Shown in pieces: positions 2,565 through 6,074 of a DNA stretch of 37,413 nt. Position 1 is the stretch's first letter, and every line of letters starts with the position of its first letter. The translations under genes were made by a program, and so were the position numbers. Origin of the DNA: an uncultured Monoglobus sp. (lineage in GTDB: Bacteria; Bacillota; Clostridia; Monoglobales; Monoglobaceae); NCBI GenBank assembly GCA_947624495.1, contig CANQKP010000004.1:1-37413 (forward strand), given 5' to 3'. The notes beneath the pieces are model-generated. The model was not told where the DNA came from, made no database searches, and was given only the letters and a program-made list of their open reading frames with translations.

Positions 2565-4112
2565 TTATTTGCCAAGCGACTCCTTAGCGGAGACAACGAC
2601 CTCTTTGTTATAGCAGCTGAACATATCGTCAACGGCTTTAAGATCCTTGGGCTTGCCGGTAAGAAGGCTTACCACCGGAACGATGACAAGTCCCGCCAGC
2701 ATCGCGATAACGCCGCAGTTTATCGGCGACTTAAGAATTGCAGGGAAGATGCCGGGCGTCAGAATATTTAAAATCATAATGCCCGCGCCGAAAATAAAGC
2801 TTGCCCAAACCGATATCTTGTTTGTTCTCTTCCAGTAGAGTCCGTACATAAACGGAGCGAGGAACGCGCCTGCGAGAGCGCCCCATGAAATACCCATCAT
2901 CTGAGCTATAGCGCTGAGCTTATCTTTATTCAGAGCAATGATCGCCGAAATCGCAATAAACACAACGATAAGTATTCTCATAATAAGAACCTGCTTCTTT
3001 TCGTCCATGTTCTTAACAACGTGACCCTTAAGAAGGTCAAGCGTGAGCGTTGAACTCGAAGCCAGAACCAGAGATGAAAGCGTTGACATGGAAGCGGAAA
3101 GCACCAGAACGATAACGACCGCGATCAGGATATCCGGAAGTCCGGAAAGCATAGTGGGAACGATTGCGTCAAATCCGCCCTCTATCGAACCGTCCGCCAA
3201 GAATGTCAATTTGTCGGTAAACAATCTGCCAAATCCGCCCAGGAAGTAACAGCCGCCCGCTACTACCAACGCGAAGAACGTGGAAATGATCGTTCCCTTT
3301 TGGATGTCATTCTCACTCTTTATGGCGTAAAATTTCTGAACCATCTGCGGCAGTCCCCATGTTCCCAGAGAAGTCAGCAGCACAACAAACAACAGTCCGA
3401 GCGGGTCGGGACCGAAGAACGAGTTAAACGCACCCGGAGCGTTGCCGGGCGCCTCTATCGCCGCAAGTCCGTTAAGAGCCTCAATAAATCCGCCGTTCTG
3501 AGCCAGCACCGCGGCAATTACAGCCACAATGCCGAACAGCATGATAATTCCCTGAATAAAGTCGTTTACCGCGGTCGCCATATAGCCGCCGGCAATTACG
3601 TAGACGCCTGTAAGTACCGCCATTACAATAACACATACCGAGTAATCAATTCTCGGAAACGCCATTGAAAAAAGCCTTGACAATCCGTTATAAAGCGACG
3701 CGGTGTAAGGGATCAGGAAGATGAACACAATAACCGAGGCGGCAATTTTAAGCGCCGTACTCTGATATCTTTTGCCAAAATATTCAGGCATGGTGGCGCT
3801 GTGCAAATGCTGGGTCATAAGTCTTGTACGGCGACCGAGAATTATCCATGCGAGAAGTGAGCCAATGACCGCATTTCCGATACCGATCCAAGAGGAAGCT
3901 ATACCGTACTTCCATCCAAACTGACCCGCATATCCGACGAAAATAACCGCCGAAAAATATGATGTGCCGTACGCGAACGCGGTGAGCCAAGGACCGACAG
4001 AACGTCCGCCAAGTACAAATCCGCTTACATCAGTCGAATGTTTTCTGCAATACAGTCCGACAGAGACCATGACCGCAAAGAAAACGATCAACAATCCGAT
4101 TTTTAAAACCAT
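2565..4112 (-). CDS. Sodium:solute symporter (SSS family), probable tyrosine/aromatic amino acid importer
   Basis: This is a 515-residue integral membrane protein with about 13 hydrophobic segments, the usual SSS size. Family marks include VLGGRSVGPW after the first helix, AYGTSYFSAVIFVGYAG in the next, GGYMATAVNDFIQG in the middle and LSASMSTLSSLVLASSS in the region that binds sodium in this family. The start is the ATG at 4112, which has AAGGA about ten bases upstream. A TTG at 4142 would extend the frame into the leader terminator and is rejected. The gene stands alone behind a T-box leader whose specifier reads as a tyrosine codon, so tyrosine (or a precursor) is the predicted substrate. 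That is inference from regulation, not from the protein sequence. Confidence 0.85.
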   Translation of the reverse strand: MVLKIGLLIVFFAVMVSVGLYCRKHSTDVSGFVLGGRSVGPWLTAFAYGTSYFSAVIFVGYAGQFGWKYGIASSWIGIGNAVIGSLLAWIILGRRTRLMTQHLHSATMPEYFGKRYQSTALKIAASVIVFIFLIPYTASLYNGLSRLFSMAFPRIDYSVCVIVMAVLTGVYVIAGGYMATAVNDFIQGIIMLFGIVAVIAAVLAQNGGFIEALNGLAAIEAPGNAPGAFNSFFGPDPLGLLFVVLLTSLGTWGLPQMVQKFYAIKSENDIQKGTIISTFFALVVAGGCYFLGGFGRLFTDKLTFLADGSIEGGFDAIVPTMLSGLPDILIAVVIVLVLSASMSTLSSLVLASSSTLTLDLLKGHVVKNMDEKKQVLIMRILIVVFIAISAIIALNKDKLSAIAQMMGISWGALAGAFLAPFMYGLYWKRTNKISVWASFIFGAGIMILNILTPGIFPAILKSPINCGVIAMLAGLVIVPVVSLLTGKPKDLKAVDDMFSCYNKEVVVSAKESLGK

Positions 4113-4145
4113 TTTAAACCATCCTTTCTCTTTTGCGGGCAAAAC

Positions 4146-4396
4146 AAAAAACCCGCTCTCTTTTTTAGCAGAGGACGAGCTTTACCCGTGGTACCACCTC
4201 AATTCATCATGACCTCGCGATCATGACCTTAGAAGGTATCCGAAATACCTATGTTCTGTGACGGGAACTCCCGTTGCAGCCTACTTGGGAGGCTCAACCC
4301 CTTTCGGTGCACTGCTCGCAAAATGTATTCGGCTGCGCTTCCGTCATTGCCTCGCAGCGACCGGCAACTCTCTCAAGGCTTTCACGCACCTACTTG
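4146..4396 (-). promoter_or_regulatory. T-box leader, tyrosine (UAC) specifier
   Basis: On the minus strand the leader runs from AGTAGGTGC (about 4394) through AGAGAG, a distal stem TTGCC...GGCAA around GGTCGCTGCGA, and GAA-TAC-A (specifier TAC at 4327-4325). The lower stem closes with GCACC (4310-4306). It then reaches the T-box sequence GAGGTGGTACCACGGG (4200-4185). A terminator follows (4180-4146), CTCGTCCTCT against AGAGAGCGGG, then TTTTTT. The codon is placed by the usual pattern GAA-codon-A before a GAG. Uncharged tRNA-Tyr would stabilise the antiterminator and switch on the downstream symporter. Confidence 0.88.
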
Positions 4397-4427
4397 TTTC
4401 TGCTCAAACGCATTTATATGTACATTT

Positions 4428-4496: not shown

Positions 4497-4525
4497 TTGA
4501 CAAATTTTAAAAAAGGTATTATACT
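4497..4525 (+). promoter_or_regulatory. Strong sigma-A promoter for the tRNA genes
   Basis: TTGACA (4497-4502) and TATACT (4520-4525) with exactly 17 bases between them, in an AT-rich stretch. The first tRNA begins about 30 bases downstream. Confidence 0.85.
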
Positions 4526-4555: not shown

Positions 4556-4639
4556 GCGAGCATGCTGGAACCGGCAGACAGGCACGTTTGAGGGGCGTGT
4601 GCTTATGGCGTGTGGGTTCAAGTCCCACTGCTCGCACCA
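4556..4639 (+). tRNA. tRNA-Leu (anticodon GAG)
   Basis: The acceptor strands GCGAGCA (4556-4562) and TGCTCGC (4629-4635) pair fully, and ACCA is encoded. The anticodon stem CACGT/GCGTG encloses the loop TTGAGGG, giving anticodon GAG, which reads CUC and CUU. There is a long variable arm, as expected for tRNA-Leu, and a T arm with GGTTCAAGTCC. Confidence 0.93.
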
Positions 4640-4644
4640 TTTAT

Positions 4645-4718
4645 TGCCTGATTGTGTAAGGGTAGCACGAGTGACTCTGACTCACTTTGTCTGGGTTCGA
4701 ATCCTAGTCAGGCAGCCA
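4645..4718 (+). tRNA. tRNA-Gln (anticodon CTG)
   Basis: The acceptor TGCCTGA (4645-4651) pairs with TCAGGCA (4708-4714), followed by GCCA. The anticodon stem AGTGA/TCACT encloses CTCTGAC, giving CTG, which reads CAG. The U1-A72 first pair is characteristic of bacterial tRNA-Gln. It lies five bases after tRNA-Leu and shares its promoter. Confidence 0.93.
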
Positions 4719-4721
4719 CAG

Positions 4722-4754
4722 GCGTCCGGCATCTGCCGGACGCTTTTATTTTTC
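4722..4754 (+). terminator. Terminator of the tRNA operon
   Basis: GCGTCCGGC (4722-4730), loop ATCT, GCCGGACGC (4735-4743), then TTTTATTTTT. It lies just after the tRNA-Gln CCA end. Leakage would supply transcripts for the CLC gene 50 bases further on, which has no clear promoter of its own. Confidence 0.9.
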
Positions 4755-4802: not shown

Positions 4803-6074
4803 ATGCTGAAAAAGCTTAAACAAAAGACGTTGTCGGCAAACGATTATGTTTATGTATTTATAAAGTGGCTGATCTTCGCCACTATCACCGGCAGCCTGAG
4901 CGGCGCGGTGATCTCGCTGCTCAGAATATGCATATCATATGCCACCGAGTTCAGAACGGCGCACAGCATAATCATTCTGCTGCTGCCCTTCGCGGGACTT
5001 TTGATCGTGTTTATATACAAAATCTGCAAAATGGAGAACAACTCAGGGACCAATAACGTTATACGCTCGGCGAGAAATGAGGAGACAGTACCTTTCAGGC
5101 TCGCGCCTTTGATTTTCTTTGCGACAGTCCTGACGCATCTGTTCGGCGGAAGCGTGGGCAGGACCGGAGCCGCGCTGCAGATCGGCGGCAGCATAGGCGA
5201 GCTTTCCAAAAAAATATTCAAACTTGAAAAAGAGGATGCGAACATAATCATCATGTGCAGCATGAGCGCTGTGTTTTCCGCCTTGTTCGGAACACCGCTG
5301 ACCGCCACATTTTTTGCCCTTGAGGTAATCGCTGTGGGCGTTATTCAGTACTCGGCGTTCATACCGTGTCTGCTGGCGTCTGTGCTGGCGTATAAAATAA
5401 CGCTTCTGTTTGGGATCGACCCCGGCGTTTATGCTTTGGCGTCAGTGCCGCAGCTTCACCTGATCAGCTTTTTTAAAACAATAGCCGTCGCAATTATTTG
5501 CGCGGCGGTAAGCATAGTATTCTGCGTCGGGATTTTCGGAACCGAAAAAACAATGAAAAAATATTTTAAAAATCCTTACATACGGGTTTTTGTGGGCGGC
5601 ACCGTAATCGCCGCTCTGACATTCGCGCTGGGAACAACCGATTATAACGGCACCGGCGCGGAAGTTATAAATGCCGCAGTAGAAGGCGGAAAGGCTGTTC
5701 CGTACGCATTTGCGCTGAAGATCCTATTCACCGTAATAACAATCGGAGCCGGATTTAAAGGCGGAGAGATCCTGCCCGCGCTGTTTATCGGTGCCACCCT
5801 CGGCTGCACCTTAGGCGGGGTCTTTCACCTGGATACAGGATTTGCCGCGGCTCTCGGCATGGTTTCAATGTTCTGCGGGGTGGTCAACTGTCCGATAGCA
5901 GCCGTGTTTTTCAGCGTTGAATTGTTCGGCTCGGACGGCATTGTGCTGTTTGCCACCGCCGCGGCGGTGAGCTACCTTATGTCCGGATACTACGGCTTGT
6001 ACAGCAGTCAGAAAATCGAGTACTCAAAGCTCGGCACCGATTATGTTGACGTGTATACAAAACGCAAATATTGA
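4803..6074 (+). CDS. CLC family chloride/fluoride channel or antiporter, gating Glu replaced by Thr
   Basis: This is a 423-residue membrane protein of normal length for bacterial CLCs without CBS domains. The helix-N/filter region is HLFGGSVGRTGAALQIGG and the C-terminal filter strand is GFKGGEILPALFIGATLG. The start ATG at 4803 follows GGGGTGA. An open frame further upstream runs through the two tRNA genes and is not coding. In CLC proteins the first motif is normally GREG, and its Glu is the gate and the proton-coupling residue. Here the codon at 5163-5165 is ACC (Thr, residue 121). In the family, loss of this Glu uncouples transport and gives a passive leak. The local sequence resembles the CLC-F-like branch of Clostridia, so the ion (Cl- or F-) is uncertain. 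It is convergent with prmA, with one base between stops. Confidence 0.88.
   Translation: MLKKLKQKTLSANDYVYVFIKWLIFATITGSLSGAVISLLRICISYATEFRTAHSIIILLLPFAGLLIVFIYKICKMENNSGTNNVIRSARNEETVPFRLAPLIFFATVLTHLFGGSVGRTGAALQIGGSIGELSKKIFKLEKEDANIIIMCSMSAVFSALFGTPLTATFFALEVIAVGVIQYSAFIPCLLASVLAYKITLLFGIDPGVYALASVPQLHLISFFKTIAVAIICAAVSIVFCVGIFGTEKTMKKYFKNPYIRVFVGGTVIAALTFALGTTDYNGTGAEVINAAVEGGKAVPYAFALKILFTVITIGAGFKGGEILPALFIGATLGCTLGGVFHLDTGFAAALGMVSMFCGVVNCPIAAVFFSVELFGSDGIVLFATAAAVSYLMSGYYGLYSSQKIEYSKLGTDYVDVYTKRKY

Follow-up and report, generated by a model that had tools for sequence, protein, structure and literature searches.

Organization of the locus

The window, a contig stretch of 37,413 nucleotides from an uncultured Monoglobus sp., carries a gene of the CLC superfamily immediately downstream of a tRNA-Leu/tRNA-Gln pair (Table 1). 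The reading frame is intact, its ATG is preceded by the purine-rich GGGGTGA, and the product matches the Pfam Voltage_CLC domain (PF00654) with an E-value of 5.6e-64, which places it in the CLC superfamily. A promoter-like site lies ahead of the tRNA pair and a terminator-like hairpin separates tRNA-Gln from the CLC gene. The hairpin repeat and its T-run can be seen by eye in an alignment with five relatives carrying threonine (Thr) at the gate position and two carrying glutamate (Glu-type), and in the same alignment a few tens of bases separate the hairpin from the CLC start codon. Transcription that starts at the tRNA promoter may read through into the CLC gene and account for its expression.

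Table 1. Features of the CLC locus and its surroundings, with positions in the window unless stated otherwise.
Feature	Position	Strand	Remarks
Sodium:solute symporter gene	2565-4142	-	downstream of the T-box leader
T-box leader	4168-4417	-	106 bits
Promoter-like site ahead of the tRNA pair	4497..4525	+	11 of 12 matches
tRNA-Leu (gag)	4556..4639	+	order tRNA-Leu, tRNA-Gln, CLC conserved
tRNA-Gln (ctg)	4645..4718	+	order tRNA-Leu, tRNA-Gln, CLC conserved
Terminator-like hairpin between tRNA-Gln and the CLC gene	4720..4745	+	
CLC gene, 423 aa, gating Glu replaced by Thr	4803..6074	+	ORF, Pfam, match to structure relatives
I37	4911..4913	+	Gly in 76/78 Glu-type members
GTNNVI, residues 82-87	5046..5063	+	replaces GSGIP (Cl- CLCs) and GNNLI/GMGLI (CLC-F)
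GRTGA, G119-R120-T121-G122-A123	5157..5171	+	replaces GREG; T121 codon ACC at 5163-5165
S153	5259..5261	+	Gly in 78/78 Glu-type members
GGEILP, residues 320-325	5760..5777	+	retained pore glutamate E322 (5766-5768); L324 (5772-5774)
F370	5910..5912	+	Leu in 71/78 Glu-type members
Y400, conserved tyrosine close to the C-terminus	6000..6002	+	alignment
Second, distant CLC (other genomes)	L027 (G006), L028 (G013), L029 (G011), L030 (G012), L031 (G007); also places in G008, G009, G010		

On the opposite strand, a T-box leader stands ahead of a sodium:solute symporter gene. In its specifier region the triplet following GAA reads UAC which, taken as the specifier, suggests that the symporter is a tyrosine-responsive transporter.

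The threonine gate defines a single clade

The initial annotation had described a CLC protein with GRTG in place of GREG, encoded by an ACC codon at least two base changes from either Glu codon and not attributable to a simple read error. The motif is indeed read in frame as GRTGA, and ACC matches neither GAA nor GAG at any of its three positions. In the CLC-F fluoride/proton antiporter, the residue aligned with T121 is E118; the window protein thus lacks the external gating glutamate that is a feature of CLC anion/H+ antiporters, an absence that is a feature of passive CLC channels with a ClC-K-like mechanism.

Relatives were collected by a family-wide search (matches in 25 of 38 genomes), from 291 genomes of the class (68 matched at 1e-30), from 398 genomes of the phylum (25 matched at 1e-45) and from 32 loci of named contigs. 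After removal of one short fragment and 15 duplicates, 132 distinct CLC sequences were left, the Enterococcus CLC-F stretch being counted with the 131 taken from loci. The gate residue is Glu in 121 of them, Thr in nine, Gln in one and Ala in one. Within the genus, a CLC of the window type was present in 11 of the 12 genomes, the exception (G004) being 74% complete; nine of these 11 read GRTG (the window's own genome and G006 to G013) and two read GREG (G005 and G014). The tRNA-Leu(gag)/tRNA-Gln(ctg)/CLC order is common to the window, to all eight Thr relatives read, to both Glu-type lineages of the genus and to L013, a locus from another genus of the same family. Thr and Glu-type copies are therefore vertically inherited orthologues, and the common tRNA locus speaks against horizontal transfer into the genus, which had also been considered.

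A maximum-likelihood tree (quick search, SH-aLRT support) was built on 126 rows, six very distant CLCs being left out. The nine Thr sequences form one clade with a support of 100, so that a single gate loss explains the data. A Glu-type pair (L011/L012) joins them in a group of 11 (support 99), and L013 is the next to join (support 92). The gate is Glu in this sister pair and in all 78 Glu-type members of the subfamily. The stem of the Thr clade measures 0.27 changes per column, that of the sister pair 0.18.

Thr is thus conserved in a clade, as the homologue alignment proposed in the initial annotation was meant to reveal: all nine distinct sequences, from separate genomes, carry it, four with ACC and five with ACG, which bears out the view that it is not a read error. 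The replacement took place on the stem of one Monoglobus-like clade and probably went through an Ala or Lys codon, GAG to ACG requiring two base changes via GCG or AAG. Comparing sequences across the three deep Thr lineages gave Nei-Gojobori dN/dS values of 0.085-0.115 at a dS of 1.1-1.9, and comparisons inside a lineage gave 0.020-0.082, indicating that purifying selection persisted after the gate was lost; between the Thr clade and the Glu-type sister pair, synonymous sites were saturated and no ratio was obtained. The Thr gate is one old, maintained loss, neither an error nor the mark of a decaying gene.

Two further natural gate losses, Gln in L122 and Ala in L127 (the latter on a very long branch), were seen in another CLC subfamily, which lacks the extra pore glutamate.

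All eight other genomes of the Thr clade possess a further CLC, a distant one (about 22-23% identity over the aligned part), in five copies of which (L027-L031) GGAIGPEAG was read. The window's own genome (88% complete) and the Glu-type G005 yielded no such second gene, and G014 gave a weak partial match. The second CLC may have freed the first one to change.

Fold and residue changes in the threonine clade

An AlphaFold2 model built on a 113-row alignment reached a mean pLDDT of 95.0 and a pTM of 0.93. In structural comparison it comes closest to 6d0j, 6d0n and 6d0k (Z 58.6, with an rmsd of 1.9 over 394 residues), followed by CLC-ec1 (1ots, Z 42.2); 1ott and 1otu which, like 6d0k, are gate-mutant structures are also among the fold matches. 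By sequence as well, the closest solved structures are those of CLC-F (E-values of 3e-56 to 3e-55), the E. coli ClcA structures coming after them at 1e-12 and weaker. The predicted model is a complete and confident CLC fold, and bears on the fold, not on conduction.

The rest of the protein had been described as intact. This holds for the frame, which is whole, but not for every conserved position. Among 87 columns conserved at 90% or more in the 78 Glu-type subfamily members, six, including the gate, are off-consensus in all nine Thr rows: G37I, E121T, G153S/C, V324L, G342H/K/R and L370F. G342 was already changed in the Glu-type sister pair, which leaves five columns; the stem that acquired E121T also acquired V324L, G153S/C, G37I and L370F. 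Comparable counts in 11 other clades, hand-picked and of unmatched depth, were 0-5, against six in the Thr clade. At six (five without G342), the number of stem changes is at the edge of the ordinary, and we discarded it as proof of a refitted pore. The changed columns could reflect a shift of function or a partial relaxation.

E322, the counterpart of E318 in CLC-F, is present in all 87 subfamily rows, the Thr rows included. Two residues further on, L324 occupies nine of nine Thr rows, most others having V324; the Glu-type protein L110 also reads GGEILP, so that L324 is found outside the gate-less clade too. T121 and L324 stand at the starts of model helices 121-139 and 323-340, which we take to be the F and N helices of CLC proteins, flanking the anion path.

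A glutamate supplied by a neighbouring residue would have told against a gate-less protein, and a substitute was looked for among positions acidic in at least eight of the nine Thr rows and in fewer than 30% of 76 Glu-type rows. This screen returned positions 52, 78, 133, 406 and 411, none of which lies beside 121 in sequence; along the chain, no acidic residue has been gained next to the gate. Positions 52 and 411 are Thr and Gly in the window protein, the Glu-type sister pair shares E133 and an acidic residue at 78, and E406 is new in the Thr clade but falls within the C-terminal tail. On these sequence grounds, all five were rejected as substitutes for the gate.

A subfamily beside CLC-F

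In a review, GNNLI/GMGLI, GREGT/V and GEVTP are given as the signatures of CLC-F proteins (PMC11139923). All three are absent from the window protein, which has GTNNVI, GRTGA and GEILP instead; its Glu-type relatives mostly show a GTN-type motif, GREGA and GEIVP. In the tree, 87 rows make up the window subfamily, a clade of its own (support 100). It stands away from the Eca and GNNLI groups, the branching order among the three resting on forks with supports of 85-90 in this quick search. By its sequences, the subfamily branches beside the CLC-F antiporters but is not CLC-F.

A fluoride riboswitch upstream is a common but not an obligatory trait of CLC-Fs, about 30% of which are controlled by one (PMC11139923). 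Covariance-model scans detected no fluoride riboswitch at any of 70 subfamily loci, the window included; two of these (L014 and L056) encode the same protein and one (L089) has only about 140 bases upstream. The riboswitch was found at six of seven scanned CLC-F-type loci (L109, L112, L114, L115, L116 and L121, but not L119). Two genomes, G103 and G177, hold both kinds of CLC, and there the riboswitch adjoins the CLC-F-type copy only.

A CLC-F-like group (L108, L111, L113, L117 and L133) has GEVIP or GEAIP in place of GEVTP, and no fluoride riboswitch was found on scanning L108, L111, L113 and L117. This group possibly has another ion specificity.

A putative uncoupled anion pathway

Taken together, we favour the view that the Thr protein is a folded CLC under selection, distinct from CLC-F, which through the replacement of its gate Glu by Thr probably forms an uncoupled, passive anion pathway, most likely for Cl-. 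Precedents are at hand for such a role. In the structural study of CLC-F, E118Q/A reportedly abolishes F- and H+ transport and gives rapid uncoupled Cl- flux. E148A of CLC-ec1 conducts passively (PMC4188032), in an H+-uncoupled manner at about 974 ions/s (PMC7274781), and ClC-K, with Val at the gate, conducts Cl- passively (PMC4188032); the claim of the initial annotation that known CLCs deprived of this residue do so is in keeping with the last two cases. By analogy with these three precedents, the Thr protein most likely provides anions with an uncoupled pathway. No carboxylate would be left to swing into the anion sites or to carry a proton, and anions would pass without proton coupling. 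The membrane potential and the gradient of the anion would drive this passage, through a protein acting as a passive channel or uniporter. We infer the uncoupled flux, the identity of the ion and a physiological role in charge or volume balance. The literature searched returned neither a transport measurement for the subfamily nor an experiment with Thr at the gate position.

Chloride is more likely than fluoride. The position of Ser107 in Cl- CLCs corresponds to Met79 in CLC-F (PMC12035849), and to T83 in the window protein. Thr is the subfamily residue there and, because it offers a hydroxyl as Ser does in the Cl- CLCs whereas the Enterococcus CLC-F has Met, Cl- appears the likeliest ion.

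More tentatively, and with some doubt on our part, the clade may have converted an H+-coupled exchanger into a dedicated channel with a refitted pore (E121T, V324L, G153S/C, G37I and L370F), perhaps gated by E322. The retained E322 could gate, block or couple. Its takeover of the lost function, as a new gate or proton carrier in a protein that is still gated or coupled, is the strongest rival to an uncoupled pathway, albeit not a very likely one. The conservation of E322 throughout the subfamily and the V324 to Leu change beside it in every Thr row are consistent with such a takeover, and simulations of CLC-F take the matching E318 as its inner glutamate (PMC12035849). However, L324 is shared with the Glu-type L110, and E322 is equally kept in Glu-type members, so that its retention indicates no new role. 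Moreover, CLC-F E118Q/A is said to keep E318 and yet to be uncoupled.

It is unlikely that transport has been lost altogether, the protein being kept for another role or slowly decaying. Several conserved residues beyond the gate changed on the stem, and a second CLC is present in eight of the nine Thr genomes; but the frame is intact in all nine genomes with dN/dS about 0.1 or lower, one or more of the Thr rows keep the consensus residue at 81 of the 87 conserved columns, and the model is that of a confident CLC fold.

The reading of the initial annotation as a natural passive anion (Cl- or F-) channel thus stands in so far as the clade has lost its gate Glu to a fixed Thr, with purifying selection on the gene and no acidic residue adjacent in sequence, and is unsupported in its fluoride part. 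It is very doubtful that the protein is a passive fluoride channel doing the work of Fluc (crcB) in the Thr species. CLC-F is its closest solved relative, riboswitch control extends to only about 30% of CLC-Fs, and the Thr genomes seem to be without any known fluoride exporter: a crcB search was negative in all nine and no CLC-F-signature gene was seen among their CLCs, whereas such an exporter is present in over 85% of the strains surveyed (PMC11139923). The three CLC-F signatures nevertheless fail, the tree sets the subfamily apart, and the fluoride riboswitch was found in none of the 12 genus genomes, as at none of the 70 subfamily loci scanned. CLC-F gate mutants, too, reportedly lose F- transport. 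Across the class, crcB itself turned up in only 53 of 291 genomes, and it is not avoided by genomes that have a Glu-type member (9 of 45, versus 44 of 239 in which the subfamily is absent; Fisher p 0.84); being equally frequent with and without the subfamily, it seems not to be replaced by it. A fluoride role for the Thr protein is unlikely.

Finally, although the genomes appear to have been assembled from metagenomes (the titles of the named matches say MAG), a sequencing, assembly or alignment artefact can be dismissed, since a common, codon-varying Thr is read in nine genomes of a monophyletic clade, with two codons, in an ungapped and unambiguous motif.

Comparison with known systems

How exchangers and channels interconvert in the CLC family is an old question, usually approached through engineered gate mutants or distant eukaryotic channels. 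Gate-less CLCs are already known in eukaryotes, namely ClC-K, plant CLC-G and TbVCL2; among the listed titles and abstract beginnings of the literature searched, we found no earlier description of the window subfamily or of any bacterial CLC clade that is naturally gate-less. The present work delimits a Clostridia-rich subfamily beside CLC-F, devoid of the CLC-F signatures, whose ion was not found in the literature searched. Here the Thr protein and its gated orthologue occur in one genus and at one locus, with 65-68% identity and few stem changes at conserved sites. If our reading is true, these Glu orthologues provide a natural before-and-after pair for the passage from transporter to channel, and swapping a handful of residues between Thr and Glu orthologues makes the exchanger/channel question testable.

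The nearest known system is CLC-F of Enterococcus casseliflavus (6d0j), which is the best match in both sequence (32% identity) and fold and has in common the extra pore glutamate (GGE). The window protein differs by the lack of the gating Glu, of the CLC-F signatures and of a detected fluoride riboswitch, and by its place in a separate clade. The kidney channels ClC-Ka/ClC-Kb resemble it in that their gating Glu is replaced, there by Val, and in their passive Cl- conduction (PMC4188032); unlike the window protein, with its Thr and retained GGE glutamate, they are eukaryotic and associated with barttin. The plant CLC-G subfamily (PMC7733266) and Trypanosoma brucei TbVCL2 (PMC5731698) are likewise described as natural CLCs without the gating glutamate, but they are eukaryotic and presumably belong to other branches of the family, the likeness being drawn from their descriptions. 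The laboratory mutants E148A/E148Q of CLC-ec1 and E118Q of CLC-F have lost the same residue; theirs is an engineered change, whereas that of the window protein is natural, clade-wide and maintained.
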